Below are positions 10,699 to 50,183 of a DNA stretch of 64,000 bases, piece by piece (position 1 is the first letter of the stretch; each line of letters opens with the position of its first letter). The translations under genes were made by a program, and so were the position numbers. The notes beneath the pieces are model-generated. The model did not search any database. It was not told the origin of the DNA and saw only the letters and a list, made by a program, of their open reading frames with translations. The DNA lies in NCBI RefSeq assembly GCF_035083965.1, contig NC_089739.1, positions 4,718,198-4,782,197 on the forward strand. The letters are read 5' to 3'. Origin of the DNA: Branchiostoma lanceolatum (Eukaryota > Chordata > Leptocardii > Amphioxiformes > Branchiostomatidae).

Positions 10699-13600
10699 AT
10701 GTCGGGTCGGGGACGGCGGAAGTCTAACGTCGCGGGAGATTCCTCGCCGCAGGTCGGCACTTCGTCGTCTCGCACAGGACGCCAGGTCAAGCGTAAAGCG
10801 CAGGACGACGACGCACCAGAAGGAAAGCGATACCGGAAGTGTGAGAAGGCAGGGTGCTCCGCGACCTATCCCATCTGTCTCGCATCAGCCACAGACAGGT
10901 AAACTACATTTTGTTGCCTTAAATTATGTCAAATTCAAAACGAAGACATGCTTGGTAATACTAGATTTAAGGGCTCCCTTGGAAATTAGTAACTGTTAAC
11001 TGAAGGGACTACCCTAAAGATTGATAAATAAATGGATAAAACTAATACTGAGAATCTTTAAATGTTATTTGCGCAATAACCCTTTGCCATGAAATCATGA
11101 CACTGCGAATATGTGTTTTGTAATTCTACTGTATTATAGAATGTTTTCAGCTGCGAACTTCAAGCAAATCTTCTTTCCATTGAACAGTTTCTCTGTCAAC
11201 GTTAAATAAAGAGGATTGTTGTTATCTTTGTTTACAGATGTGCAGGAAATGGTTACACCTCCAGGTGGTACCATTTATCTGCAGGGGAGCATTTCTGCAA
11301 CGAGTGCTTTGAATATTTTTACCGAAGGTAACCATCAAAATAGATAGATATATATCTTGACTGTCCATCACAATTATCAATTTAACCTATGAGAGAATGG
11401 CAATTAGCAGTTCGACCAATGAAAGAGTGGCTACATGTCCATCAGATACATACATGTATGTGTCTGCATGTATGTTTTTATTTTGAATTTTTGCATTTCT
11501 ATGTTTTGATGGAGGTTGGCTTTGACACCGGTCTGCAATATACTTATTGAAAGGCCGCTGAAGACCTTTTTCATAGAACCTGTGACTTGCATTCCTGTGC
11601 CATGATTATCAGTAGATGATAAGTGAATAGCAGTCCTAGATATTGAACTGGATTTAGGTGTTTGTGACACTTTTCTTTCCCAACTTTCCAGTTACAAAGA
11701 TGGCTATGACATCTACATCAATTGGAAGCGTCAGTGGACCTCAAACGGGAAGAGCGATGCGGGCATCAAGGCCTTCATCGCGGACCAAAAGATCCCGTAC
11801 TGGGTGCAGTGTACGCGGCCAAACTGCGGCAAGTGGAGACAACTGTCCAAGGACATGGACATCACCTTAGAGCTGCAGCAGAAATATGTCTGTGGGATGA
11901 CGGCAACAGGAATAAAGGTATTTCTTATGTTTTTCTTTATAGAAAACCAATCTCGATCCAGCTTATTTCACTGAAGAGCTTATCTTCCACTGCTCGTATC
12001 AGAGAAGACCCCAAGCTCTATTTTGACAAGTACAATGAACCATGGCTTAACGTCCCGTTGGAAGGACTGCAACCCTTTCCAGTAGTTTGCATGTCGGGGC
12101 AGCGACAACAGCTGGGATTCGAACTCACGACCTCTTGCTACAAAGGTGGGGTCGCTAAACTTTCTAGTATTCTAGGCATGTTAATCTTTTGCCACTTACA
12201 TGTAGACCCTGTTGTGTTTCTACTAAGTCTAAATACAAATGTTGTCTGTTCTTCACAGAATGAGAAAGACCTATGCAGCACACCAGAAGATTCGGTGAGT
12301 AATGCAAATATAATTCATAAAAAATTCCTTATTCTTATACATGTACTAGTAGTCTAATCAACTGCTTCTATCATAAGTTTCCAGCATGAAAACATCTGTA
12401 ACATGTCCGCAATGTTTTACTTATTCACAGTCGCATACTTGTCAGGTACCCATTTTTACACCTGGAAAGTGATTGAAAGTTGTGTATCATGTCTTTCCTA
12501 AGAGCACAACATCCTTTGCATGTTAGTGGATTCGAACCCAGGACCTCTCGGTCCTGGGCCAAACATCCTAACCGCTACGCCAACACAACGCCACACTAAC
12601 AGCTGACTCTTGTTTTGATAGAGAGTTGAGCTGACTCGTGAGTATCGTTGGTTGGAGACCCTGATCCTGCCCCCCCTCCTGAAGAGGAGTCCTGCCGCCC
12701 CCTTCCTCACAGAGTACTACCCAGACGGGGTCGGACTCAGCCCCACCAGTGCCCCCCCTCCCACACAAAGTAAGGGGGGGAAGTCCAAGGTCAACGGAGC
12801 AAAGGGTACGTCAAAATTTCATCTATCATTCTAAAAAAAGAATTATTCAAGCTGTAGCTTTTAAGCGTTTTGTTTAGACTTTTTAGTTTTGGAAAGGGCT
12901 ACAAAATTTCTGGCTTGTTGCAAAAGATCTTCAAGCTCTATTAGGCTAGAGACTTGTGTCACATTTAGTTAGGCTATATGAATACAGTATATTTTTTTAC
13001 CTTTGTGAAAAATGGAGGCAATATTGTTTTCATCTGTGTGTTGTTGGTCTGGATTTGCGTTTGCAGTTAAGATATTTGTAGAGTGAAAAATACTGAAAAT
13101 GGTGTAACTAGAAACTTGCAGGATTGGAAGGCTGGTTTGGCTCAGGTCCAAAGTTGGTGCCACAGGCTTGGCTCAGATCCATTTAGTCCCACAGGAAAGC
13201 AAGAAAATGCATTAAAAATTCACAGTAATGATTGAAACATGACGTTCTAAAAAATTATGAATGTTTCACGGATGTCTGAGGTCTTTGATTTCTTTTTACT
13301 AGGTGCGGATGACAGCGATGATGAAGATAATGTCCCTAATGGTAAGATCAAGTCTTCTTGAATTTTGTAGAATCGATTATGGAAAGTTTGGATAGAGCAA
13401 AGTCTTTATATTTTTTTGTCTTGACTGTGTAAGTTTCGACTTGTTCCTGCTTTTCTTACAATGAAGCAAAATATGAACATTTTGTTGTCTGGGAGTTCCA
13501 AGTCTGTCCTATTTAGTACTAGGTCTGTGCCTGTCTTTTCTAACAGTGAAGTGAAATTTGAACATTTTGTGGTCCTGTGTAGGTCTATGCCTGTGTCTTT

Positions 13601-16600
13601 TCTTACAATGAAGCAAAATTCTAACTTTTTACTATACATTAGGAATATAGAACCAGAGTATAGTTCCAGGTCTGTGCCTGCTTTTTGTGACTTTTTGTTG
13701 TCCTGCGCAGTTCCAGGTCTGTGCCTGTCTTCTGTAACATTTTGTTGTCTTGTGCAGTTCCAGGTCTGTGCCCGTATTTCCAGCCCTTCTACCAGCCCAA
13801 TGAGAACGGTAAGGCCCTGTGTATCCGGCCAGACGTTATGGAATACGACGAGGTCCAAGAGTTCCCCGAGTTCGGGAGGGAACAAACGCTGTACCTGGCA
13901 CTCAGGAACCTAACTATCGCACTCTGGACTCTCAACTGCAAGGTTAGTAATCTGCTCACCCCTAAACTGAAATGGTTTGGACCAGTCTTTCACTCTACCT
14001 GTCATTTGTGGAGGATTCCATTATCATGCACAGGTGGTACAAAATAATAACAGCTATAAATTGTAAAACTACCTGTACCTTGCACTCAGAAACCTAACTA
14101 TAGCACTCTGGACTCTCAACTGCAAGGTTAGTAGCCTGCTCACCCCTAAACTGAAATGGTTTGGACCAGTCTTTCACTCTACCTGTTTGTGGAAGATACC
14201 ATTATCATGCACAGGTGGTACAAAATAATAACAGCTATAAATTGTAGAACTACCTGTACCTGGCACTCAGAAACCTAACTATAGCACTCTGGACTCTCAA
14301 CTGCAAGGTTAGTAGCCTGCTCACCCCTAAACTATAATGGTTCAGACCAGTCTAATACTCCAGGGAAAGATTCCATTACAGACACATGCAGGGGTGGTAC
14401 AAACTAAGAAAGGTTATAAATTTTAAAACTGCCTGTGATGAACAGACAGAAAATTACAACGATGTTATTTCTAAAAAAGTAAGTATTCTAGATTCCTAAT
14501 ATGTACTAATATGATGTTATTATAACAGTTATAGTTGGCCGTAGAGAATCATTTTCCTGTTACTTATCATAGGAATGTTTAGGAACTGTGGTTCCAACAT
14601 GTAAAAATGAAGGAAAAAAGTCCAAGATGCATGAAAAGTTGATGAAACGCCATCTTCTGTTTTTTCCGGAAGGAATTTCTGACTCCGCAGAAGTGCGCGG
14701 GCCACGTTATCGTACGCGGCCTGGTCAGGATACGCTGCGTACAGGAGCTGGAGCGGATCGTTTGCTTCCTAACAAGGAAAGGTCTCATCAACACTGGACT
14801 TCTGAAGGATCCTCCAGGGGGCGCTCTTCTACCTAAGGACTTTGATGCTGTAGGTGTACCGTGAATCTTGTAATGTTTACGGCAGTTTTATTTTCTACAC
14901 TGCAAATTTATGACACCGTGAATATGAGTTTCCAATGTACATGTATTAGTACTGTAATATAGAATTGTTTCAACTGCAAACTTAAAACACAAAAAAAACT
15001 GCTTTCCCGTTCTAACGCGAAATTAAGTCCCGGTGAAAGTAAATGAACTTACAGACAGTATCTTCAAATCCTAGTGAGAAGTTACCGTAAACACATTTTT
15101 ATGCTCTGCTTGTCCCTTTGTTTTTGCTTCGATTCCCTGACTTGCTGCAAGGATGACTAAATTCACATTCAGCACAAAATGTTTTTGTGTCTCTTTTCTT
15201 ACTGTTCTTACTTGTTCCACAGGGTGCAGTAGTGGTTATAGGAGCTGGACCGTCTGGACTTGCTGCTGCTAGACAACTCCACAACTTTGGCACAAAGGTA
15301 AACTTTTATAACTTAATTAATATAACATCTACTAACATAATTCCACCAGGGTACATAATTCTGCCACCCTGAAAAGATACGTCCAAACAGATCTCCGACC
15401 CAACGTCCCCCAGTACAATGCACTCCTGTATATCTAAACTGTGCATGTGCAAAGTAGGGGATTTATGTAACCCAGCGGATTGATGTAGGTTAGCAGAATG
15501 TGTCAGAAGACTCTTCAGTAAATATCATCGGATATTGGAGATTTCTTTTTACTGAACCAGTGAATCTCACCTGCTGACATTTCGGTGTCTGTCAGACATG
15601 GAGTACTGCTTCTCACTGCTATAAGTAGCCGAAGTAGGTGGGGCTTTTGCGTCAAGAATACTTTGGCTAAATTAAATTGGCGACTACTCCAGTCAGAAGC
15701 TTTGAAGGTGTCTGACAGACACTGAAACTAAGCAGGTGATATTCACTGGTTCAGTAAAAAGAATCTCCAATACCCTATGTTCTATGTTCTACCAACCTGA
15801 TGAAATTATTTTCAGAAGTATATATTATCGTCTTGTGAATAATGTGTAAGTAGGAATTGCAGTTACAGACTGACTGACTTAATCTATTCACAGATAACCT
15901 TAATCAGGGCAAAAATGTGCTTATTTTTACACAAACACACAGAGACCTGTACCTTAACACCTGTACCTAGAACCTTACCCTTTCTGTCCCCTGCCCAGGT
16001 GATAGTTCTGGAGGCCCAGGACAGGGTGGGGGGCCGGGTGTGGGACGACCACAGTCTGGGCTCGTGTGTCGGCAGAGGGGCACAGATAGTCAACGGCTGC
16101 ATCAACAACCCCATAGCACTCATGTGTGAACAGGTAGGTCTCAACTTGTACCTAGACAAGGTGGTCTTGTATTTAGATTGGCTGACTTAGAATCTAGAGT
16201 ATCCCTAGTAGCTAATTGTAATATAATTTGGATGTTTTTTATTTCGCAGGAGAGGGAAAATGCAGTGTTCGCAGTGGTTTTAACTTAAAACAAAAACCAC
16301 GGACATAAAACCGCCACAAACATTTTTGCATTTACAGTATATGATGACAACCCCATAGCACTCATGTGTGAACAGGTGGGTCTTAACCCTTAGACCCTAT
16401 ACACGCTGGGAAAATTTCTGGACGTACCACAATAACGTACATTTGTACGTAACCTTCATTCCTGGGTGTGAACTGGCATTTTTATGGCCCGTACGACATT
16501 GTCATGCGTTACATCCAGGGTGAACATACGCAGTCGTACGGACCATTAAAATGCCTGACCTACATCACGCGGTTCACACCCAGGAAAAAAGTTGACGAAC

Positions 16601-23847: not shown

Positions 23848-24594
23848 TCAAAAGTATGCAGACGACGTTTGTCTGTTTCTGTCTCGACGGTCCCACTTAA
23901 CCGGCGAAGGGGGGTCCCTTTCGTGTCTGTTCAAGGTTTGCGAAACATTGGACAACAAATTCGGGATGTTTATTCTCACTGGAGAAACCGGCCTACCGAA
24001 GGAATCGAGTCGTCTTCTTTGAGAACGTGTCGACAATGTTTTGATGTTCGCTCGGCTGCAATTTTGACAGTAATTTTGTCCAAGAACGTCACAGAAGTGT
24101 CGACAGCGGCGGTCGTGTCTTGGACATGACGGCTCCGGCTCAGATGAGCTGCAGTACGATAAAAAGTCGTCAGAGGGCGTGTTTGGACGGGCGTTTATTT
24201 CTGGCGACCTCATCATCAGTCTGCAGAAGACACAGTTGTTGGTGAATGTGTGAGACGGGTGTAAGACAGAAGTTGGCGGCTCATCCTCGTCCTCCGATTC
24301 TTGCTCAATTCTGAGCCCTAAAAGTTGCGCGCGACGCACTCGATAGGGTACCAGTTCCTGGTCATTCTGTCTCGTCAAAGGCGGTAAAAAAGTCCTCCTG
24401 TCCTCGCCATTTTCTTCAGCACTCCCTTTCCTGCGTCTTCTAGATCTTCGCGTTTCAGTCCCGTCTTCTTCGACCGTTTCTTCCATCCCTACATCGGGCA
24501 TAGTCACTCTCAACCGCCGCTTATATGTGTCCAGTTCCTCGGTATCTGCGCCGAATTTCCACCGCCGATACAGTGCCCCAAGCGCTCCGTCCAT
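23848..24594 (-). CDS. Unrecognised intronless protein, Arg/Glu-rich with a Cys/His cluster (248 aa)
   Basis: I do not recognise this gene. A single uninterrupted frame runs from an ATG in good context (AAAATGG, 24594) to TGA at 23848. The N-terminus is MDGALGALYRRWKF; the middle is highly charged (runs of Arg and Glu, e.g. RRSRRRRKG); residues about 125-195 carry a Cys/His cluster (CVFC, then CPRHDRRCRHFC and YCQNC), which could bind zinc; the tail is Ser/Arg/Pro-rich. No signal peptide or membrane segment is evident. Composition is more CpG-rich than the flanks. The frame also stays open upstream through a GTG, but a eukaryotic start there is unlikely. It lies alone between KDM1B and the EGF gene. 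It could be a lineage-specific gene; expression is untested. Confidence 0.55.
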   Translation of the reverse strand: MDGALGALYRRWKFGADTEELDTYKRRLRVTMPDVGMEETVEEDGTETRRSRRRRKGSAEENGEDRRTFLPPLTRQNDQELVPYRVRRAQLLGLRIEQESEDEDEPPTSVLHPSHTFTNNCVFCRLMMRSPEINARPNTPSDDFLSYCSSSEPEPSCPRHDRRCRHFCDVLGQNYCQNCSRANIKTLSTRSQRRRLDSFGRPVSPVRINIPNLLSNVSQTLNRHERDPPSPVKWDRRDRNRQTSSAYF

Positions 24595-26007
24595 TTTGAG
24601 ATGACCTTTGATAATTCTCCTTTGCACCTGCCGAACAACAATGTTCCGTAGGCTGCCCGGATACGAAATGTCGTCTCCTTAGTCGCACACAAAACAAAGT
24701 GCTGAAGTCACCTGTTACGTCCTTGACTGTATACGTACGATTGATGGGGCATTAGTGAGAGACCACTTCAAGTAGCTCTAGACTTATTATTCTTCTGAGT
24801 TGTCAACTGTTGCCCGGTCCTCTTACAAACAAAAGTCGAAGCACTGGATGGCGTACTTACACAAACCACACGTTGCAAGGCCCGCAGGGTACGGTATTAA
24901 CCGCATTTAAGGCTTATTTTCCTAATTAACAAGGGATTGTCTGAACAGAATGATTATAATCAGCACTTATGATAATTACCTGGAAAGGCTTTCACTTGTA
25001 ATTAAGTGCTAATGATTAACTTCAAGAAAAACAAGGTCTGTTGTGGAATAAAATAAATCCTCTTTGGCGGTGTTATACCAAATAGCAGCGTTGTTCGTAG
25101 TAAACCCACCGCGTTTGTTAAAACGAATTAATCCGGAGAAGTTTACAGAAATGTTCAGGGACTTCCGTCTTCTGAATAAAGGTCCAGTGGATAACGTCCG
25201 TCATGCGCAGTCAACCACATCCGAGTTTGCTCCTAGTTCCAGGCGAGGATATTTCAGCAATATATTGTTCCCTTGAAGTAGAGGTACGGAATTTCAAACA
25301 TTCACGTGCAGTAACCGTTAGTAACCGACGTTGTATCCAGTACAGTCGCTGCTTCACGGTTGGTTGTCAGAACGTTATTCAGCAAGCCTGCCCCAATATT
25401 TCGTTCTCACGCCATCATTTAGAACATTGTCTCGTACACGTAAGGATGGCAATAGATCAGTGAGATGTCTCGAGTTCTGTTCTTGTCCAGAAGATGGCAC
25501 GTTTCCACGTTTCTGTCCCCGAAAAACAAGCCCGACAACGCTGGAAACAGGTGTATAAACTTCAGCACCAACACAGTACTCCAACTCTAAGCCCCGCCAT
25601 CTTGTCCAAAATCCAGATTTCTCGTTCTCACGTCATCCTTTACAATCACGTAACGTCCCGTGCATGGAAGACAATAGTGCAGGAAGATGCCTCCGCTGTT
25701 CTCCAAGAGAACATGCGTTTGACTCCTCGAAACGTTGGAAACTGGTGTCTAAACTTTATCACAGTACTCCAACTCTAAGCCTCGCCTGTCCAAAATCCAG
25801 CGTCTAACCCGTATGCAAATACGCCTCACTCTCCAAACAAATATAACAGCAATAACCGGGTCTCCTAGACGACTGGAAACAGCGTGTCAGGCTCGTTCAA
25901 ACATGTCATGCCACGCAACACTGGCGGCGCATACTTATCCACACATTAGGGCACAAAGCACGGACTACAAGCGTGACGTGTTGTGTTTTGTCTGTGGGGT
26001 TTTCGCG

Positions 26008-31752: not shown

Positions 31753-34700
31753 CTGTACATGTGACTCCGTCGCCATCAAACCCGGCGTTACAGGCACAAG
31801 TGCCGTCCAGGGCGGGAGGGGCGTTGTCAGCACAAGTGGCGTCCGCGTGACACGTCGTAGTCGCGCAACCATCTTTGTCTACAACAGAAGCATGATTATA
31901 GTTTTCATGGAGTGTTCGGGAGGCGATCCAAATCAGCAGACAACGCAATACCTTAAACATGGACAGGGGGCGTCACTATCTCAAGCCCGTCTCTTGTCAC
32001 GTGATAATCAACATCAGTCAAGTGACAAGAGAACTCCAAATTGCAAGAAGAGATCTGACTTGACCGGGTTGATGAAGAGACAGAGATTGTCTCAAAAGCT
32101 CCCCAGGGTAGCTACTCTTTTAGTTGTACATGTGCGTAATGTTTATATATTTGTCAAAAGTATGATGATAATGGTTTCAATTGGTCAGAAATTACCCGTG
32201 CAATGGCAGCGTTTCTAGTGCAGAATTGGTGCGGGCTTTACAATCACTTAATATACATGGGCAACAGATACATGTTTGCATGCTCCACACTTGCATTTTG
32301 TGGAACTGTCGCAAGAATCTGCTATTCGAATTCGGCGCCACCAGGTGATCTCAATACGACCTTCCCCAACCGAAGTCAAGTACCCATTCAAACATGGGTA
32401 AATGAGGAAAGCCGTGTTAAGTGCCTTTCCCAAGGGCACAAGATCGGGCATATCAGTGGTTTCGAACCCGGGACCTTTCTGTCACATTTCAATCATGCAA
32501 GTGAAAAAATGGATGTTGCGAAAAAGAATACCTGTACATGTGACCCCGTCGCCATCGAAGCCGGCGTTGCAAGCACAAGTGCCGTCCTCGGCGGGAGGGG
32601 CGTTGTCGGTACAAGTGGCGTCCGCATGGCAGGTCGTAGTCGCGCAACCATCTTTGTCTGCAGATAGGAATAGAAACATACTAGTAAGTCATCCGTGAAT
32701 ATTTTCATCAGGTTGGTACGTCGCTGGATAGCAAAGTTCTTTGTACACAACCAGTGTATCATTCAAGTGTAGCGTGCATAGTCCAGTGGTTAGCGGCCCT
32801 GCCTCTGGATCTAGGAGCCGTGAGGTCGATTCCGGCTGTGTCGCTCACCCGACATGCACGGAATGCACCATTATCCTTAGGACGGAATGTTAAGCCGTGG
32901 TCCACTAGTGCTGTTCGTTGTACTTGTCACAAAGAGCTAGGGGAATTTCCCCAGTACAATGAACCTGTAAATATTGTACATAGCGTCTGTCTTCTCAGTC
33001 ACGACCAGTGGAAGATTAGCTCTTCAGTGAGCTAAATCTGGATGGAGATCACTTTCCTTTTTTTCTTTTCAAGCCGACGATGGTAAGATCTGTTATGATT
33101 ATGACTCATGTCTTTTTCTGTCACATTTCATGCAAGTGAAAAAATGCATGTTGCGAAAAAGAATACCTGTACATGTGACTCCGTCGCCATCAAACCCGGC
33201 GTTACAGGCACAAGTGCCGTCCTCGGCGGGAGGGGCGTTGTCAGCACAAGTGGCGTCCGCGTGACACGTCGTAGTCGCGCAACCATCAATGTCTGCAATA
33301 GAAGCATGATAATTGTGGTTTTAATTGGTCAGAAATTACCCGTGCAATGGCAGCCTTTCTAGCGCTGAATCAATACTTGGTTTATAATCACATTATACAC
33401 ATGGGCAGGTGCTCCACACTTGTATTTTGTGGAATTGTCGCAAGGGTCTGGGCGGCTGTCATTTGAATTCGTCGCCACCAGGTGACCTCAATACTACCTT
33501 CCCCAACCGAAGTCAGGTACCCATTCACACCTGGGTGGAGTGAGGAAAGCCGTGTTAAGTGCCTTTCCCAAGAGCACAACATCGGGGCATATCAGTGGTT
33601 TCGAACCCGGGACCTTTCTGTCACATTTCAATCATGCAAGTGAAAAAATGGATGTTGCGAAAAAGAGTACCTGTACATGAGACCCCGTCGCCTTCAAACC
33701 CAGCGTTACAGGCACAAGTGCCGTCCAGGGCCGGAGGGGCGTTGTCGGTACAAGTGGCGTCCGCATGACAAGTCGTAGTCGCGCAACCATCAATGTCTGC
33801 AATAGAAGTATGATAATTGTGGTTTTAATTGGTCAGAAATTACCCGTGCAATGGCAGCCTTTCTAGTGCTGAATTGATGCAGGGTTTGCAATCACATAAT
33901 ACACATGGGCAGGTGCTCCACACTTGTATTTTGTGGATCTGTCGCAAGGGTCTGGGCGGCTGCCATTTGAATTCTTCTTCTTCTTCTTCTTCTTTGTGGT
34001 TCGGCAGCCAGCATCAACATGTTGATGAATCTGCTGCGCTTGACAGGTAGTGCTAGTGCTGGGATGGTTTCTGTTGTCTGTACCAGTTGTGACGGGGGAA
34101 GGTGTCTAGTGTGAATGTCTAGCTGGGTCTAGTGGAGGTGGGTCACCCTGTCCCTGAAAGACGCCAGGGAGGGGGCAGCCACCATCTCTGCAGGCAAAGA
34201 GTTCCACTCTGCAGCTGTCCGTGGGAAGAAAGAGAACTGTCTGTACGTCGTTCTGCAAAAGGGAATGTCGTAGGACAAGGGGTGAAGACGTCTTGTCTGA
34301 CGTTTTGGTCGGCTGACTGAAGGTAAGTTCTGTGAGTTAATGATGGCAAGGCCATGATGCACCTTGTAGAAGGTTGTGAGCCTGGCTCTCTTCCTTCTTG
34401 TTTGTAGTGAGTCCCATTTGAGGTCTTGCATCATGTCCCCTACGCTTGAGGACTGACGGTAGCGGCAGCATACCCACCTGGCGGCCCTACGCTGGACTTT
34501 CTCTAAAGCTGAGATGTCCTTAGCAGTATACGGATCCCACACCGTACACGCGTATTCAAGGGACGATCTCACTAGTGCATTGTATGCTGCTTCTTTAATA
34601 GCCTTGCTGTTGATTCTGATGTTACGACGGATAAAGCCAAGAGATCTATTTGCTCTGTTGCATATGTTCTCAATATGGGGGCCCCACTTCAGGTCCTTGG

Positions 34701-37700
34701 TAAGTGTTACTCCTAGGTATTTCACTTGAGGTTCTTTCTGGAGTTTATGGCCGTGTAGTTGGTAGTCCCATTCACGTGTTTTTCTGCTACGGGTGATGTG
34801 GACTGTTATACACTTCTGGGGATGGAAACTCATCTTCCACCGCTGTTCCCACTCAGCTAGCTTATTGAGGTCCTCTTGGAGGTGAGCTTGGTCACGCTCC
34901 ACTTTGATGATTTTGTGGCATGCAGTGTCGTCTGCGAACATCCTTGTTGACGAAGACAGTCCTGATGGAAGGTCATTGATAAATAAGAGAAACAGGGATG
35001 GGCCCAAAACAGAGCCTTGTGGCACACCTGATTCTACCGGAACGTACTCAGACCTGGTACCATTTACAAGAACTGCTTGCTTTCTGTTGGATAAGAATTC
35101 CCTGATCCAAGCATTGACCTTGCCACCGATGCCATAGTGCCTCAGTTTATGCACAAGGAGACTATGACTCACTTTATCAAACGCCTTGGAGAAGTCCAGG
35201 ACAAGCAGGTCTTCCTGGTGGCCATTTTCAAGTGTCATAGAGACCTCGTCAACCAGACCCAGAAGCTGGGTCTCGCATGATCGGCCTTTCCGGAATCCAT
35301 GTTGTTGTGGGCACAAGATCTGATGCTGTTCACAGTAGGTCATCATCTCGCTTACGATGATATGTTCTAACAGTTTACATGGTATGCTAGTAAGAGAAAT
35401 GGGTCTGTAGTTTTCTGCTTTGTATTTTTCCCCTTTTTTGAAAACAGGGCACACATGGGCACACTTCCACTCGTCCGGTACAACCCCATTGTCGAGAGAG
35501 GCTTGGTACAGAAACGCAAGCGCTGGGGCCAGTTCCACGGCTACCTCTCTCAGGACTCGAGGGCTGATCTGGTCCGGTCCGCTAGCCTTTCTGGGGTCAA
35601 GGTTGCGGAGGAGCTTCTCAACACCGGCCGGAGTGATAGTTACGTTTTCAAGAAGGGGTTGCTCCGGATTTCTTAGAGGCATCTGTGTCCTGAGCTTAAA
35701 TTCTTCCTCAGTAAAGTCTTCTCCAGAGCTGAAGGCTGACTGGAATTGGCGATTTAAAATCTCGGCCCTCTCTTTGTCATCTGTAACTAGCTTTCCTGCT
35801 TCTTTAAGCGGTGAGATACCTGTATTTTCATTTCTCTTTGACTTGATGAATGACCAAAAGTTCTTAGTTGGTTTGGGCTGGTCTAAGCAGTCCTCAGTAA
35901 TCAGGCCTTGTACATGTGCCCAATACTCCCGTCTCAACTGCTGTTGAACTTGACGTTTATGTGACTTAAATGCTTGGAACAGGTCTGATCTTCCAGTTTT
36001 CTTGTATTTCTTATGGATTCTGTCTCGTCTTCTTATGAGTTTTAGGGTTTTATGGCTTATCCATGTAGGACTCCTCCTAGCAGGAATCTTCTTAAGGGGG
36101 ATGTACTTCTGAACTCTTTCCTGCAGACCTGTTTTCAGGTCTGCCCACACAGCTTCAACGTCCGGTTTATCTGTATGGGAAGACAGAATTGAGTTTGTCA
36201 AATCTTTTGTTGCCTTCCGTAGGCCTTCCCAGTCAGCCTTTTTGAAGCACAAGACGTGCCGTTCTTTCTGACGAACCCGAGCATTTGTTATTTGAAGTTC
36301 AGCATAGGGGATGTCATGGTCGGACAAGCCAGGTACAATCTCAACACGAGGAAACAGAGAGGGGTGGTTTGTCACTATGATATCCAGAGTGTTTGTTCCT
36401 CTTGTGGGTTTTTCTACAATCTGTTCCATACCTAAGTCACTAATAATATCCACGAACTGTCGATGGATGTTTGGGTAAGATGAACCCGGCTTCAGTGTTC
36501 TCTCCTTCCAGTCCAGGTCAGGGAGGTTGAAGTCGCCACCTAGGACGACAATGGCGTTACTGGATTGGCATGCCAGTCTCACTGACTCCGCCATTTCTTT
36601 CAGACTATCCTCAAGTCCTTCATGTGGCCGGTAGTAGCTGCCAATCAGTAAGTCCCTTTTACCTCTAAGCTTGACCTTGGCCCACACAATCTCACAGTTC
36701 CTGTCAAGGCTGGTCTCCATCGTTGCCTCTAGGAGGTCTGACACGGCGACAAGAACTCCTCCGCCGTACTTGTTCCTGTCTTTTCTGTAAGTTTTTGAGT
36801 AGCCAGGGGGAAAAATTTCACTAGAACTAATTCCCGGCGTTTCCAGCCATGTTTCTGTTCCAAGAATTATGTCTGGTCTAAGACTTTGGATGAGATTGGC
36901 TAGTTCCGGCACTTTACCACGAACAGATTGGAAATTTATGTTTAATATACGTAGTGGACGATTTGTGTTCTTATCTTGTTGTCTTTGACGAGTTGGAGTA
37001 GAGCTGTGTATCGGGTGAAAGGAGTCGTCTGAGCAAAACGTGAGGTTTTCACTGCTTGTACTTGTACTACTAGACTCGTGGTTAATGGATTCACCCTCGA
37101 CCCCATGTAGATCGAAGGCCACCGTGCTGTAATTCGGTGCATGACAGAAATCGCAGAACCACTTGACATCCGAGGCACCGAGATCAGAGTAAGATTGGGT
37201 TCCAATGTTCTGACACGATGCATGGAACCATCCTCCACAGGTCTCGCACTCAATACCCCGGACACTCCATCCTACTGTCCTTTCACAAATACCACAGGGA
37301 ACACAGGAGGACTCATCATGTGACGATAATGTAGAGGTATGCGGTCTGGGCATTTCCTGGCCAACTTTTGGGGCTAAATACACTCCACTTGGTGGTGCTA
37401 AGAAATGAACAGGTAGAATGACTAACACTAGTAACAGTACAGTGAATGGCTGTACTGTTACTAGTACTAATTCGGCGCCACCAGGTGACCTCGATACGAC
37501 CTTCCTCAACCGAAGTCAGGTACCCATTCACACCTGGGTGGAGTGAGGAAAGCCGTGTTAAGTGCCTTTCCCAAGGGCACAACATTGGGGCATATCAGTG
37601 GTTTCGAACCCGGGACCTTTCTGTCACATTTCAATCATGCAAGTGAAAAAATGGATGTTGCGAAAAAGAATACCTGTACATGTGACCCCGTCGCCTTCAA

Positions 37701-40700
37701 ACCCAGTGTTACAGGTACAAGTGCCGTCCAGGGCCGGAGGGGCGTTGTCAGTACAGGTGGCGTCCGCGTGGCAGGTCGTAGTCGCGCAACCATCTATGTC
37801 TGTAGATAGTAATAGACACACCATGAATTCGAGTAATATTTGAAAGTTCATGTCCCATTTCAAGCAAGCAATTAGAAAAACAAAAAACAAACAAATGGAT
37901 GTTGCCAAAAAGAATACCTGTACATGCGACACCGTTGCCTTCAAACCCAGTGTTACAGGTACAAGTGCCGTCCAGGGCCGGAGGGGCGTTGTCGGTACAA
38001 GTGGCGTCCGTGTGACACGTTGTAGTCGAGCAACCATCTATGTCTGTAGATAGGAATAGACACACCATGAATTCGAGTTATATTTGCAAGTTCGATAGCA
38101 AAGTTCTTTGTAGAAATCCAAGTGCATTTTTTTTCTAGACCGAGGTTTCGGTGACCGTCTGCTTCTATTACTCACTACAAGTAGGTGTCACTGCTAATAG
38201 ATGCGGTCTCAAACGTTAAGTATTTAACCACATGTACTAATGTTTAAGGTAGCAGCACACAATACCTGTACATGAGACACCGTTGCCTTCAAACCCGGCG
38301 TTACAGGTGCAAGTGCCGTCCAGGGCCGGAGGGGCGTTGTCGGTACAAGTGGCGTCCGCGTGACACGTTGTAGTCGAGCAACCATCTATGTCTGTAGATA
38401 GTAATAGACACACCATGAATTCGAGTCATATTTGCAAGTTCGTGTCCAAGGGCTAAAATTCTAAACAAAGTTGATGTTATGGAAAAAATACGTTATTTGA
38501 TCAACGAAGACATTTTCTATGTAACGTGTTTATAACCGAAAAAGCAGACAGAGTAAAAGGGAAAAGAAATTGTCGTACCTGTACATCCACTGCCGCTACT
38601 TGTTCCGTCGCCTTCGTACCCAGTGTTGCAGGTACAAGTCGCATCAAGGGCGGGAGCAGCATTGTCGGAACAGCTGGCGTCCACATGACACGGGTTGGGC
38701 GAACAGCCGTCTATGTCTGGAATTACAAATGCAGCATCAATTAGAATTATCATTAACATATGCGGTCTTAATCTATCAAATCTAAGAAATACATCAATCA
38801 TATCCCAAACAAACATTCCAACATAAAACAGATTCATCATTCATCGTTGTGGCTCTTGTCGTTCCTTTATTTCCGACAAGACCCTCATAACCATAACCAA
38901 GGAGGTTTAAACCTCCTGATTTTAAACCTCCTTGCAATAACCATGTCATAACATTCCACATCAAAATTAGAATATCAAAATGGCGACACCCCTTCCCATC
39001 AGACATCACTCCCTTAGCATGATGAGAAACAAAATGGCAACGCCAAAGGGGATGGGACAGAAACCACCAATATAGGTTTTGCTATCGCAAACCTGGAAAA
39101 TAGTCTATGTAAATAGACTTCCAACGTAAGTCATACCTGTACACCCAGTTCCGCCACTTGCGAGTCCATCGCCTTCATACCCAGTGTTACAGGTACAAGT
39201 CGCATCGAGGGCGGGAGCGGGCTTATCGGAACAGCCGGCATTCGCGTCGCACGGATTGGTCAAACAGGCGTCTATGTCTGTAGATAGGAACACCCAATGA
39301 TAACGAATAATTAGCTTCTGTTAATAAATACGAAGTTAGATTCTGATTGCGGTTAGATCACGCCAGTTCTAGTTTGTACGTTTTAGGGCCAACTCCGCTA
39401 AAATAGGTATACTTGTTAAAGGAATGCAGTGGTAAAAGAAATCTAGTACTATGTGATTTTGTGGCCATACTTATGTCGTTTTTTTATTGCTCATGAGGAC
39501 TGGCTTTTGCAGTACACACCTCGACCTGTGGACATGACCAAAAGTGGACGATAATGAGTACCGCTCGATAATGTTGGTACCCCTATGTTAACTATGAAAC
39601 TTTCAAATATAAGTTCTTTGGTTGATGGTGTCTTGATAGGAACAACCACACGGAAATACATTTTTGTAAAGTTGGTGAGTTGTATTTTGTGCGTCAGTGA
39701 CGCGTTACCTGCGGCGCAGAGTGTCCCCTCGTACCCGGTCGCACAGTTACACGTGAAACCGTTAACTCCATCGACACAGGCGCCTCCATTCTCACAAGGA
39801 CTGCTGGCACATTCATCAATGTCTGGGAAAAGTATTGGAATAGTGTTAAAATTGAAAGAAAAGATTAAACATATGTTTTCAATGATAGCTCCATGGAGGT
39901 TAGACATAAGATGATAAGATATGCAATACAAATGTTACCCAGGCAGCTGGATATGTTTTGGTTAACAGTCAGATGTTTCAAATATCCGCTACATTTCGCC
40001 AGTGACAGGTCCCTTCAGTTATAATTACCGACGAAACCTACCCATTCAGTTACTAACGAAAGACAGCCTATGTTAGCTAAAACATCTGACTATTTACAAA
40101 CCGTATCCAGTTGCGTGAATAACTTTTGTATCGTGTATAACGTTATATTTTCAACCAACCAACCAACCAACCAACAAATAAAGAAATAAACAATATTATC
40201 ATCGTCAAATCACATATGATTTTTTTATGTCGTATGTTCAAACTGATCATATTAAGTAAAGAAACTTGATTGCATGTCCGTGTTATTTGTAAAGAATCAA
40301 AATAAAATATACTATTAGGCTCGCCCCTGAGGCGTCGCCCAAAGGTTATGACAGTACAATACATACTTGTGTCACAAACGTCCCCCTCGTATCCATCCGC
40401 GCAGTTACATGTGAACAGGTCCACCCCATCCACACAGACTCCGCCGTTCTGACAGGGGCCGCTGTCGCATTCGTTAACGTCTTCGTAAAAAAAAAGCAAC
40501 GGAAAATTACTATTGCTGTCATTTTGATATCACGCAATGTTCGTGGACGATGACAACAGTATTGTGCAACGTTTCACAAACAATATTCATCAGTAGCGTT
40601 AACCATAGATACCAATTAACGTATTTTACACCTTAAAGATAACATTCTGTCAAATACTCAAAACTTACTTAAATCCATGATATTGGGTACCTATCTGAGT

Positions 40701-43700
40701 AATGAGGCTGTTGAAGTGCCTTTTAACATGCTCGAGACACTAGTACTTTCTCGATCACGTTACCCTCGTTTTACGTCCTTTCCGAAAGACGAATGCAGAT
40801 CCAACCAGGATTGGAGCAATGAGCTCAGCGGTGAGACTGCTACCAACTGAGCTACAGGGACATCCGATCCCTAGCAATAAAGCTGAATCATTTTCTTTTC
40901 AGTCAGTAGTATATGGCGTGTAGAAAGCACCGCAAAATCCACTAAGAGCAGTACCTCTCTGTGCCTCCCGATTTGTAAGGTACCTCCGGCTCACCTTATA
41001 CTACTTCAGTCTTGAGTAGACATACCTGACCCACACACCGTTCCACCGTATCCGGCCTGACAGGTACAGGTGAACTGGTTGATGCCGTCCTGACACGTTC
41101 CTCCGTTTTGACAGGGACTACTGGTGCACTCGTCGACATCTGTGGACAAGAAGGTACCGTGAACATTCTCAAAGAACATTATGTTTCATCGTTTTGGATA
41201 CCTCTCCATAAAATAGAAACTTATACAACCTGCTTCGCAAAGTGAAATCCTCAGAAATGTGGACTAGCGTTTTTGGTGCTGCAGCTTACCTTGTACTGGA
41301 CCTGTCCTTGGTGCTGAACCTTCTCTTCTTTATACACATAAACACGCATGCACACACAGACACACGCGCACACACACACACACGCGCGCGCGCGCACACA
41401 AACAAACACAGACACACGCACACACGCCCAAGCGAGCGCACTCACAATCCTGATCTGCACCTCCTGTATCACCCACCTTTCTTGCCGTTTATATGCATGT
41501 TGTTGTTGTATTTTGGCGACGTTCCCTGCCTATCATAACTACAGACTAACAGTCCACGTGACTTGGGCTAATACTAAATATATATGCATCATGCACTTTA
41601 GAATATCGTTCAGACAAGTATGAATTAACCACCTACCGATGTCGCACAATGTTCCGTTGAATCCGTATGCACATGTGCAGGAGAACTGGCTGATTCCCTC
41701 CTCACATGTCCCACCATTTTGGCACGGGCTGCCGGCACACTCGTCAACATCTGAAGTAATAACAGAACGACCAGAGATGGCAAACGTCACCCTCTTAATG
41801 CTTTGCGAACACTACAGTCTCATGGACAGACAAAAATGTGTAGTAGTATTGAGGAATAACTGCGTTATGAATATTGGGAATCGCAGAAATATGCATAGAC
41901 ATATAGACACACAGACAACAAAAAAACATACGAATAAACAGACACATATTAACACGTACAAATTTAACACCTAAACATCCACATATAACACACACAAACA
42001 TCCTAACACATTCACTCACTCCCACGCACGCACACACATAGACAAGCAACCAAACAGGCGTTATCTAGCCTCCATTCAATATTACATTACCCGTTTCGCA
42101 GTTGCTGCCAGCGTATCCGCTCAGACAGGTGCAGTTGTAGCCGTCAACACCGTCACTACACGTGCCGCCGCTCTGACAGGGGTTACTGGAACACTCGTCA
42201 ATATCTGTGAGGGTATATGTGGGGTTTTGAGAAAAGTTTATTTTACTGGGCTTTTAGTAAAGTTTATTTTGATGCACTGTCATATGAACACAAACAAACA
42301 AACAAACAAAACAAAAACAAAAAAGGCAGGCCTAAAACACGACCTCCCCGTAAACCGGTAGTTTTTTCATCATATTATTGACCTCATGACCTGGAATGTC
42401 TGTCAGTTGTTACGCAAGATTGATAAATAAATAATTCTGGTAACTCTGAGCTTCACTTCCTGTCAATCTGGCAACTTTGACCTTTACTTCCAGTCACTCT
42501 GCAGTGAACGTGACTGGTATATGGAGAATACACAATGCTAAAACACAGAAGAACAGACACACCAAAAACGATACCTCCGTTATAGGGGGTAAACGTTATG
42601 CCATTAAGATAGATTTTGTGGGCGTAAAATATTCTTGCATGTAATAATATCTAGCACTTACCTGTCTCACACAATGTTCCGTTGAACCCTGATGCGCATG
42701 TGCAGAAGAATTGGTTGACATGGTCGGTACACGTGCCGTTATTTTGGCACAGCTGCCACGAGCATTCGTCTGTTGACGAAAAAAACAAACACATAATCTC
42801 TAACTCGTACACAGGTATTATTCTATTCTTTTGAACAACAGAGAAACACGATTTGATTTCACTACTGCAGAAGAGCATATTTTACAGCGATGTTTTTTTC
42901 ATCGCTTAAAAAAATCATTCCCTTAACATTTCAAAGTTGTGAACAGATAAATACTGTAAATGCAGAAATGTTCGTCGAACTTCGTGGGGATTTGATTTGG
43001 CGGTAGGGAGAAAATGGATTGTTCAGGGTGGTTTTGAGTTTGCGTTTGAAACAATTGTCGCGCTACAGTCATACAATGGAACAGCTTTTCGCGGTGGTTT
43101 TAAGTTTGCTGTTAAGAGTTAATCGCGAAAACAGCGAACATGTGCATAAAACCGCTGCGAATATTTCTGCATTTACAGTAAGTAGATAGTAAAGATTTTG
43201 ACAAATTTACCAACCTCTTGAGATGATGATGAAGACTGCTAGTAGAGCCCCTGCAAGAATGACCGCTCCTACTGAACCGGCTACTGTCAGTTTTACCTTC
43301 CACGTCGTCCCAGTGCCTGCTCCTGTTTTAACGGGGCCAAGCTTACTCTTTCCCGCCCAGCCCGATCTGGAACCGGAGACTTCTACTAGCGATGGTTTAT
43401 TTTTCTGTCCAATCGGCGACAAGGTATGCCTGTATACGTACAAGACGCAAAGGTTTTATCGTATACGTACTGTATCTAACTGGACTGCGTCTGTTTGAGA
43501 CAAACTTTATCACCCATATAAAATTCAATTGCTGTGGGCCAAAGAAAATAGAAAAAAAAGAAACTCACGTTGACGTTGGTCCGAGACGACTCCCTCCCGA
43601 TCTCTGTACAACAAACGAGCAATAAAATTTCATTTGAAAACCAATGAGTAACAAAATATGATCGAAGAGAGGAGTGACGTGCTAGTCCAGCAAGTGTTTT

Positions 43701-45898: not shown

Positions 45899-48800
45899 AT
45901 GGCCGCCTCCTGTGATCAGAGAAAACCCGGCTTGAAAATCTGGCCAAAAGTCATCTTATTTGGGGACTCCATAACCCAGGTAAGTCGCCAAAATGTGTCT
46001 TTCATGTCCCTGTATATTTTGAGTCTTACCATAGACATATGCGTCGTTTCATCCTTTTTTTAGGTGGCAATGAAATAACAGTATCGGTCCTAGGCTAGAG
46101 GGGGGGGGGGGTATTTTTGTTGTCCATCGGAAAGATATTAAAATCATAATCTTTTATAGCAGTCGTTATAAATTTTTTTGTCAAGATTGCAGTTTGGTTG
46201 GCTTAAACCTTAGTGATGACTCATAAGCTTTTAGATTTAATTTCTTGCATGAAATTGATTTACATGTGGAGGCAAGTGCATAGTAATGTAATAATTCATA
46301 GTAACATACTATTGAATAATTCGATCACCACGTAGTGGACAAAGAAATTATGCCCAAATCAGCGAGAATATAAAGCAATGTTTGAAATTGCAGAAAATCC
46401 ACATTGCATTGTAAGAAATTGCAGAATCCGGATGGATTTTATAACTAGTTCGCATGGTTTTAATTTCATGTTAAAGGGAAAATGCAGTGTTCACCGTGGC
46501 TTTAAGTTTGCGGCAGCACTATAGTCACATACTGCTAAAGTCTTGGACAAAAAAAATTGCGGTGGTTTTAAGTTCGTGATGAAACAGTAGACGCGAAAAC
46601 TGCAAACATACAACAACCACAAATATTTTTACATTTACAGTATTTCGGGGTCGGTGGGACTTGGGTATACACAAACACAATTACACATTTACCACACCTC
46701 GAATACTTTGGTTCTCATGAACAATTCATAAATGCACAAATGTTAAGATCTTGCCTGTGTGTTTGTTCATACAGTATGCCTTTAACGATGGAGGTTGGGG
46801 TGCAGCACTACAAGAACTTCTACAAAGGTAAAATACACAATTATGAATATAAATAGGATGATAGTATTGTGCTGTATTATCATTAATTAAACATATTATA
46901 AACACATGACAAGCAAGGTTCTTCAAAGAAACTCGCAATGGTTAAAAAGCTAACCCTAGTCCTCCAAGTGTAAACTAAACTTACTTTAATCCATTCATTT
47001 TTGCAAGGACTTACTAGTACTAGTACCCAAACTCCAGCTATCCAGGGCTGTACTCGTGGGTTGACCGGTTACAGGGCAGCTGCTATGAGCATGATTAAAT
47101 CTGGCTAGTTTTATTGTAGAAGGGAAAAGCAGATGAGTTTGGAAATATTTTAAGTTTGTGGTTGAAACAATTCTGTAGTTAAGTAATTATTATACTTTGG
47201 AAATGCATTTTTGCGGTGTCATGAATTTGTGGTAGAGTGCACTGGTTACCGTGAAAACCGTGAAAATAAAACTAACGCAAACATTTCAAGTTTTAATCTA
47301 AAGCCAGATGAAGTATATAATATTTAGGGCAACTTGATCGAATCATCTTTTTATTTCTTATCTACATAGGAAATGTGACATCATCTGCCGAGGCTTCTCG
47401 GGTTACAACACAACGTGGGCCAACATGATACAACCACAGGTCATCAACAAGGAGAACGCCTCCGATGTTGTACTAGTCATTATATTCTTTGGTGCTAACG
47501 ACTCTTCCTTAAAAGGTAGGATGTGATTGTTTGTTTCTGTATCTGTATCTGTATCTATATAGCCGGTACAACCGCCATTAGGCGTAACACAGCAGCTTCG
47601 CAGGCACGCGGCGCGGCAGCAGCTGGTTATATTACACAGAACGGTCTGTTACACCTAGTCTTTGCATATCTGACTGCAACCGTTCTTTAAAGCTACTTAG
47701 TAAAGATGCTCCTACAGTACCTGATGACAACGAGCTCCATTCTACTATGGTTCTCGAAAAATACGAATTTTTGAACATATCAATCCTTGGCTGATAACTC
47801 TGGTACTTAAAAGCATGACTATTTCTAGTCCGCTTTTGAGCTGGCATTAGATTATTTACTTATCAGTCGGTACGTCCACAAGTTTATTAGTCATTTTTTT
47901 TCTTTTGCATAACCAGTAAACAGCCTTTAAGCACAAAAGTTTTAAGACCAGAAATTTGATCCACTGAAACCAGAAACATTCTTGATACATGTACTAAGTA
48001 AACTTTGACATTTTCCCTGAACTTTGACCATTACCCCTAATGTAGAGGTTAACCCACAACAACATGTACCACTGGGAACCAACTAAAATAACCTCAACAA
48101 CTAATGTAAATTGACAATTATTCCTTTATTCTGAGTGCAATCCACTACTACCAGAGCTCCTACACTCGCTACCCAGAAAAAAAATCAAGGCAGCAAGTCT
48201 AGGAGCTTGGGTAGTACTGTAAATCCATTTAATATTGCGGTTGGCAATTTTAGTGATTAGGGGAAAGGGAGTATAGGCTACCATTCAAGGACTTTGAAAA
48301 TTGACTTTTCCCCTATTCCAGAGGAGAACCCACAACAACATGTACCACTGGAAACCTACAAGAACAACCTCAGGGACATGGTCCACTACCTCCTTGGCCA
48401 GGGCATCGGCCCCGAGAAGATCATCCTCATCACCCCCCCTCCACTGGACGAGGCTGAATGGGGGAAGGTCTGTAAAGAAAAAGGTAGGGAAATTCACAAA
48501 TGTTAACATTCATTAATGCGTCACTTTGTAACATTTTTGTGCCAAAATTTTGAACTATTTTTTTGGTTATATATTAACATTCTTTCAAGTGGCATTACGT
48601 AACAATTTGATGCAAAAAATTGAAAAGTACAAGATAGAAAAAAAATGTGAATGACATCTTCTACCAAATTTTAAAACATTTGTGACATTATCTCATATTT
48701 GTGACGTTGATGGTTTGTGCAAAAACAGCCCACACAAGGTATGCCCTTTTCGCAAAATGCACACCCACAAGACGTAAACAAAGATTTGAATGAACGGTTT

Positions 48801-50183
48801 TCTGCTAGGAGTCTTTCGCCACTACAATTTCGAGCTCAAATCAATCCTGGAGTACTTGGAAAACAACAAGAATGGCTGATAGCTGCGATACACACCCAAA
48901 ATTGTCAGCTTTCAAACATGCTCGTGTCATATATGGCATAATATTTTTGCACTTTCACTCCCTGAAAGGTACTATGAAATAGGGTGTGGTCAAATCACCT
49001 TAGTAAAGAAATGACCAGGAAATTAGCTTTTGTTTCGTCCTGATGTTACATATACATGGTCTCTGCCTATGTAACATAATGTTGCTTTGACAAAGTTGTT
49101 GTACACGACCAGAAGGGATTGTTGGGGGAGAGGGGATGCCACATTAATATTGTAGCATTGTTTTTATGGACTGTGATATATGTTATGTCACATTTTTGTG
49201 TTGTGTCTTTCAGGTTTAAAGTTGAACAGGTTGAATGCAGTGACTGGGCAGTATGCCAAGATGTGCTGTGAGGTGGCTGTGGAGAAACAGACGTCGTGTG
49301 TCGACCTGTACACCTACATGCAGAATGAAAAGGTTAGTATTATCATGATGCTGGTCATCTCTCTGTCTCTCTCTTTATCCCTCCCTCTCTCTATCCTCTC
49401 CCTTTCCCTTTATCTCATACTCTCCTGATCTCTCTCTTTCCTTCATTCTTTCTCTTTCTGTCTCTCCATCTCTTTTTCAAAACCTCTTTTCTCTTTCTGC
49501 CTCTCTCCATTTCTTCATCTCTCTCTGTATCTCTTGTCCCTCTCCATCTATCTCCATCTCTCTGTACCTCTTTTCCCTTTCTATCTCTTTCTCCATCTCT
49601 CTAACTCTTTGTCTCCTCTCTCCCTCTCTCCCTCTCCCTCTCTCTCTTTCTCTCCCTCTTTCTCTCTCTTCTTTCTGCCTCACTTTCTCCACCTTTTTCT
49701 GATTCTCTTGCCCCATCTCTTTCTCCTCTATCTGATGTGCAGTGGCTGGTTATAGCACACAGACCAATCCTGACTGTCTATCACAATTAGCAGTTCAACC
49801 AAAGAGAGCATGGCAATTAGTGTTTCGACCAATTAGAGAGTGACTGGACTTATTTTTCTTTGGCATTTCTATGTTTAGACGGAGGTGGGGGGGCTATGAG
49901 ATTGATCTGTTCATATCCTAACTCTACCTGTCATCTAAAGCTATCAAGTGAAGACGCTCCTACAATATTTGAAGACAACAGTAACAGATTTTTTGTGTTC
50001 CAGGACTGGCGTAAGTTTCTCTCGGACGGGCTCCACCTCTCGAGGGAAGGGAGCCAGTTTCTCGCCCGGTGCCTTTCCCCCATCGCTCAGGACAAGACAG
50101 ATCACCTCCCCTTCATCTTCCCTCACTGGGACAGTATAGACACCAGCAAACCTGAGAAATCCTTGTTATATCCACACAACTAG
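45899..50183 (+). CDS. IAH1: IAH1, isoamyl acetate-hydrolysing esterase homologue (GDSL/SGNH lipase; 6 exons)
   Basis: Small SGNH-fold hydrolase, the animal orthologue of yeast Iah1; the physiological substrate in animals is uncertain. Exons: 45899-45979, 46775-46827, 47370-47515, 48322-48483, 49214-49332, 50004-50183 (TAG). The total is 741 nt, 246 residues, against 248 in human. The four catalytic blocks are seen: FGDSITQ with nucleophile Ser24, Gly53 in GFSGYN, FGANDS with Asn88 of the oxyanion hole, and DGLHLS with Asp195 and His198. No signal peptide is seen, so it is probably cytosolic. The ATG sits in AAAATGGCCGCC, a strong Kozak context overlapping a YY1-like element. Intron 3 has a degenerate copy of the exon 4 head (48044-48100), and intron 5 a long CT-rich tract. 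Confidence 0.95.
46430..46642. mobile_element. Degenerate MITE of the CTGTAAATG family
   Basis: Shares GGGAAAATGCAGTGTTC and the right end TTTACATTTACAGTA with the other copies. IAH1 intron 1. Confidence 0.6.
47535..47852 (-). mobile_element. 5'-truncated non-LTR retrotransposon, 3' end only
   Basis: A minus-strand frame of about 70 residues ends with the typical LINE tail (YQPRIDMFKNSYFSRTIVEWSSL) and is followed by a short tandem tail of the GATACA type (plus strand TGTATC repeats at 47538-47556). It lies in IAH1 intron 3. Confidence 0.7.
48044..48105. repeat. IAH1: Degenerate copy of the IAH1 exon 4 head in intron 3
   Basis: About 57 bp resembling the start of exon 4 (real start 48322) appear 278 bp upstream, sharing AACCCACAACAACATGTACC and preceded by an AG (AATGTAG) at the position of the acceptor. 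A frame shift and substitutions make it non-coding. Confidence 0.85.
49345..49735. repeat. CT-rich polypyrimidine tract in IAH1 intron 5
   Basis: Nearly 400 bp of TCTCTC/CCTCTC-type sequence with strong pyrimidine bias on the plus strand. Confidence 0.9.

Follow-up and report, generated by a model that had tools for sequence, protein, structure and literature searches.

A decayed local copy of the intron 3/exon 4 junction of IAH1 in a lancelet, and the question of whether exon edges are preferred sites of duplication

Introduction

Are splice junctions preferred sites of local duplication in the lancelet genome? The question is raised by IAH1 of Branchiostoma lanceolatum, which lies in the 64,000-nucleotide stretch of DNA analyzed here (hereafter, the window). 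A first-pass annotation of this stretch had pointed to a copy of the exon 4 head in intron 3 and, together with copies in VPS13B and KDM1B, had read it as a sign of recurrent duplication centred on splice junctions. If junctions were truly duplication-prone, a mutational bias would supply introns with new splice sites and could account in part for the introns and exons gained by lancelets, as has been proposed for duplicated intron-exon boundaries in their genes (PMC3087553, PMC3902484). Counts of edges against exon interiors tend, by themselves, to suggest such a bias. Before it can be claimed, one has to control for the background level in introns, for unit length and selection, and for the longer time over which exon-anchored copies can be detected.

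The duplicated junction in IAH1

We modelled six genes with 60 exons in the window (KDM1B, 18; VPS13B, 12; GID8, 4; ADRM1, 5; IAH1, 6; and a gene made of EGF-type exons, 15), and the models are backed by family-level matches. The VPS13B model is wrong past exon 11, as its last exon contains stops, and a candidate KDM1B exon at approximately 13303-13351 and another candidate at 12007-12045 were dropped because their phase or homology did not fit. The spliced IAH1 protein has 246 residues and matches the Pfam GDSL lipase family (3.5e-24) and PDB entry 3mil, an isoamyl acetate-hydrolysing esterase (8.5e-25). The positions of its exons, and of the repeats discussed below, are given in Table 1.

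Table 1. Features of the IAH1 locus and local repeats at exon edges of KDM1B and VPS13B, in window positions
Feature	Position	Strand	Description
IAH1 gene	45899-50180	+	six exons; gene model and protein matches
IAH1 exons 1-6	45899-45979, 46775-46827, 47370-47515, 48322-48483, 49214-49332, 50004-50180	+	gene model
IAH1 exon 4	48322-48483	+	162 bases; starts and ends in phase 1; gene model
Tandem pair at 5' end of IAH1 copy	48001-48038	+	19-base unit
IAH1 copy	48018-48096	+	27 intron bases, the AG acceptor and the 51-base head of exon 4
Copied reading frame	48046-48085	+	EVNPQQHVPLGTN, then stop codon (translated in the exon 4 frame)
Spacer	48097-48294	+	198 bases; no similarity to exon 4 or intron 4
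Imperfect palindrome within spacer	48143-48219	+	70% self-complementary
Source of the copy	48295-48372	+	last part of intron 3 and the 51-base head of exon 4
KDM1B exon 6 acceptor array	13662-13772	+	47-base tandem array; alternative acceptor 13784 falls outside
KDM1B exon 6 donor array	13889-14436	+	tandem array of approximately 181 bases, head-to-tail
KDM1B exon 9 donor copy	16105-16387	+	29 exon and 12 intron bases, 242 bases downstream, 39/41 identical, spaced
VPS13B exon 11 donor repeat	307-483	-	93-base repeat pair; covered with 2 of 3 donor choices
VPS13B exon 10 donor array	996-1178	-	67-base array; depends on donor choice
VPS13B exon 8 donor array	2257-2694	-	94-base array; status varies with the donor chosen
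VPS13B exon 7 donor region	3182-3534	-	repeated in its own intron

The copy and its source are 81% identical over 79 gapped columns and 83% identical over 66 ungapped ones, and their starts lie 276 (ungapped) or 277 (gapped) bases apart. The alignment score of 77 is far beyond chance (1,000 dinucleotide shuffles of intron 3 averaged 17.9 and reached 28 at most), which identifies the copy as a genuine duplicate. The exon head and AG are thus present upstream, as first annotated, although at 48018-48096 rather than 48040-48105 and at a distance of 276-277 rather than 278 bp. The native acceptor at 48322 reads tattccag/AGGAGAAC and the copied acceptor at 48046 reads aatgtag/AGGTTAAC. The similarity ends sharply at 48096, after which the next 198 bases resemble neither the remainder of exon 4 nor the beginning of intron 4 (P = 0.69), and the sequence upstream of the copy is likewise unlike the spacer in local alignment (P = 0.55). 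The duplicate is a single copy, separated from its source by 198 unrelated bases, and does not form an array. Apart from its own palindrome, the spacer has no second copy within the 64-kb window; its folding is somewhat more stable than that of shuffled sequences (z = -2.38; 2 of 200 shuffles equally stable).

The copy has decayed, in agreement with the first-pass annotation, which had called it so. It carries an in-frame stop, and its exonic part differs from the source at seven of 51 bases (86% identity), with the changes falling at codon positions 2, 3, 2, 1, 1, 3 and 3, that is, at all three positions. The intronic part differs at seven of 27 bases and by one gap. Intronic divergence is thus about twice the exonic divergence, as would be expected if constraint acts on the exon only, although the difference is not significant (Fisher P = 0.22) and this explanation is consistent but unproven. 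With a matrix of the 54 acceptors in the window, the copied acceptor scores -0.7 and the native one 9.5; two of the 54 native acceptors rank below the copied site, and other AGs in intron 3 score 8.0 and 10.3. A candidate donor, AAT/GTAAAT, at 48105 scores 3.9 with the matrix of 54 native donors. Judged from these sequence features, the copy is most likely a non-functional remnant.

Exon edges and local repeats in the window

The window is rich in local repeats. Alignments within 1.5 kb at a score of at least 32 numbered 98 in direct and 28 in inverted orientation, against shuffle means of 0.3 and 0.15 (20 shuffles), and they group into 26 loci across the window. A local duplication at 48500-48621 (73% identity, ungapped) is purely intronic and lies just 3' of IAH1 exon 4, so that local duplication here extends beyond junctions. 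We counted an edge as covered when a local direct repeat extends across it by 8 or more bases in both directions, and examined the 80 internal exon edges of five genes, among which the one edge of the last VPS13B exon was kept. Because the exons of the EGF gene are mutually homologous, this gene, in which 13 of 28 edges and all 15 mid-exons are covered, was not included.

Eight junctions in three genes were covered, namely the VPS13B exon 7, 8, 10 and 11 donors, the KDM1B exon 6 acceptor and donor and exon 9 donor, and the IAH1 exon 4 acceptor. The earlier minimum of five junctions, likewise from three genes, is therefore exceeded, although four of the eight (the VPS13B exon 8, 10 and 11 donors and the KDM1B exon 6 acceptor) change status with alternative splice sites; the VPS13B exon 7 donor was covered under all three alternatives tried. 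In each of the eight cases the copy falls within the neighbouring intron, upstream of the two acceptors and downstream of the six donors, as gene survival would demand.

The repeats themselves are of different kinds. The VPS13B arrays at 996-1178 and 2310-2674 are head-to-tail. Exon 8 of this gene may end inside its 94-base array, in which case part of the repeat would be coding; the units of this array bear a strong donor-like site (CAAG/gtaaggat). At KDM1B exon 9 there was no trace of a longer unit beyond the 41 copied bases (P = 0.58 and 0.36), and the spacer of this copy contains a dispersed repeat sequence that is also found near 5050, 27840, 43150 and 46450. Some of the copied splice sites are still strong: the KDM1B exon 9 donor copy at 16375 scores 10.4 against 12.4 for the native site, and the exon 6 donor copy at 14126 has the native score of 7.9, so that the latter may be a usable decoy donor.

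The first-pass annotation had proposed that edges be compared with mid-exon segments, and by this comparison edges are indeed covered more often: repeats cover 8 of 80 edges and none of 42 mid-exon points (Fisher P = 0.030 one-sided and P = 0.050 two-sided). However, depletion in mid-exons is to be expected, because a duplication inside an exon alters the protein. Among intron positions 10.0% were covered (n = 20,648), a proportion equal to that of edges (10.0%), against 1.5% for exon interiors. The argument that duplications centre on junctions lacked this intron control and is not supported by the comparison. When edges were shifted within their genes in 5,000 permutations, the mean number covered was 6.8 (sd 2.1; P = 0.37), and other settings gave P = 0.42 and 0.70. 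In a search similar to the one that the first-pass annotation proposed, we looked for non-exonic copies of 36-mers (at edges, 30 exon plus 6 intron bases) within about 1 kb and with at least 26 of 36 matches, and found them for 4 of 80 edges, 0 of 36 mid-exon segments and 5 of 80 intron segments. Inverted repeats covered none of the 80 edges.

Base coverage is insufficient by itself, because intron coverage includes the same edge-touching arrays. Therefore, we simulated the placement of whole loci at random, excluding placements that destroy exons. Of the 14 loci in gene spans, eight touch an edge, against 4.03 expected (P = 0.014). Drawing one locus as a full block raised the expectation to 4.26 (P = 0.023), four further settings gave P = 0.013-0.023, and stricter score cuts left 7 of 10 loci (3.62 expected, P = 0.023) and 7 of 9 loci (3.48 expected, P = 0.016). 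The excess faded when tandem arrays from a repeat finder were added (8 of 19 loci, 5.34 expected, P = 0.11), when VPS13B, the gene with ambiguous donors, was excluded (4 of 9 loci, 2.15 expected, P = 0.13) and when 16 bases were required on both sides (3 of 14 loci, 3.63 expected). The event excess at edges, about two-fold, is thus not robust.

Could splice junctions nevertheless be preferred sites of micro-duplication, for example through breaks linked to transcription or splicing? The event excess and its persistence under stricter cuts speak for this explanation. However, in addition to the fading just described and the lack of any excess in base coverage, P rises to 0.21 once edge placement is given twice the odds, to allow roughly for the longer time that exon-anchored copies stay detectable, and the window was picked out after the pattern had been noticed. 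A modest junction bias in the window is neither shown nor excluded, and we consider a true preference for junctions to be unlikely. A slightly less likely extension of it would be that junctions are about two-fold hot for local duplication and that introns steadily gain ready-made splice-site copies. These would form a lasting stock from which new exons and introns could arise, with the IAH1 copy as an old, decayed member.

Origin of the IAH1 copy

Three other explanations concern the IAH1 copy itself. It could be a used element, that is, a poison exon or an alternative 3' splice site through which the expression of IAH1 is adjusted, given the AG kept at 48046, the possible donor at 48105 and the in-frame stop. 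However, its acceptor is weaker than 52 of the 54 native sites and is outscored by other AGs of the same intron, the donor score is near the 10th percentile of native donors (3.5), and no codon constraint is seen in the differences. We also looked for RNA pairing of the copy with introns 3 and 4 and found nothing above chance, the observed complementarity score being reached by 38% of 300 shuffles. Such a use is very improbable. The copy could also be the remnant of a duplication of the whole of exon 4, which has 162 bases and is symmetric (phase 1-1), so that a full tandem copy would keep the frame; moreover, the EGF gene of the same window has clear whole-exon copies. Against this, the first 51 exon bases are matched at 86% but the last 111 are undetectable after 48096 by the test given above, and a large deletion or replacement would have to be assumed. 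Whole-exon duplication was rejected on account of this confinement to the first 51 bases, and a remnant of it is improbable as an explanation of the copy. Of similarly low probability is the insertion into exon 4 of a palindrome-bearing element of approximately 198 bases, which would have left direct repeats, the truncated upstream copy later becoming intron. This is suggested by the imperfect palindrome between the copies and by the dispersed repeat sequence that likewise occupies the spacer of the KDM1B exon 9 copy. Ordinary target-site duplications, however, are far shorter than 79 bases, the rest of the window contains nothing related to the IAH1 spacer, and the palindrome stops short of the spacer ends.

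We therefore return to a local duplication of approximately 79 bases spanning the intron 3/exon 4 junction, which has probably left a tolerated copy that decays neutrally. In this duplication, a single event, a second junction copy would have been placed upstream, within intron 3. Splicing would have kept using the intact downstream acceptor, so that the copy was tolerated, and it would then have decayed as neutral intron sequence. The copy would be one among many local direct duplications of a repeat-rich region, and those that cross an exon edge would persist where the extra copy lands on the intron side.

How the duplicate arose can be narrowed further. The arrangement of copy and source, which are not head-to-tail but have 198 unrelated bases between them, speaks against a simple tandem duplication; one would have to assume a later insertion, a replacement or, instead, a one-step templated insertion. 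After a simple tandem duplication of 277 bases, a full-length trace would be expected at the identity of the copy. This suggests that the copy is either a short spaced insertion or what is left of a duplication whose remainder was replaced, by some route of repair or replication. Local templated insertion during end-joining repair gives a short, spaced copy of nearby DNA. The IAH1 copy and the KDM1B exon 9 copy share this form, and both may have taken such a route.

Relation to known duplications

The first-pass annotation knew of no standard name for such structures. However, duplicated intron-exon boundaries in lancelet genes are called "mirages" in two published reports (PMC3087553, PMC3902484), which propose that new introns originate from them; the structure has thus been published before, and so has the idea that it gives rise to new splice sites. 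One of these reports describes imperfect duplications of 60 and 108 bases at splice sites of PGBD5 and also names troponin C (PMC3902484). Mirages have in common with the repeats of our window a partial, boundary-crossing duplication, intronic copies, involvement of both 5' and 3' boundaries, and occurrence in several unrelated genes (PMC3087553, PMC3902484). The boundary-spanning unit described there is also seen in the IAH1 copy, with its 27 intron and 51 exon bases. In contrast, the minisatellite-like, head-to-tail array described for mirages is absent from IAH1, which has one decayed copy and a 198-base spacer, and the best match to that description in the window is given by the KDM1B and VPS13B arrays. 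Mirages are further characterized by normal splicing that is left undisturbed and by an unstable number of repeats. By its sequence, the IAH1 copy belongs to exon-boundary duplication in the broad sense, outside its array form.

Intron gain by tandem duplication has been reviewed, with a potato RdRp gene as one case (PMC4974935). A duplicated intron/exon structure brings ready-made splicing signals with it (PMC4974935), as it does here. In contrast to intron gain, the IAH1 copy shows no new intron or exon by sequence, and its copied acceptor is weak.

Tandem exon duplication is similar in that exon sequence is copied beside its source, but the IAH1 copy has only 51 of 162 exon bases and lacks the donor. 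The whole-exon form is found in the EGF gene (31753-42769, minus strand), which has at least 15 EGF-type exons of phase 1-1, and in which adjacent exons, together with the flanking intron sequence, reach 92-96% similarity in places (37646-38447); this shows whole-exon tandem duplication in the same window as IAH1.

Two long open frames were also observed on the minus strand. The frame of 276 residues at 23851-24678 has no Pfam match at 0.001. The other, at 34132-37515, sits between EGF exons, has 1,128 residues without internal stops and matches reverse transcriptase, endonuclease and PHD-finger sequences, and is thus a non-LTR retrotransposon-like frame.
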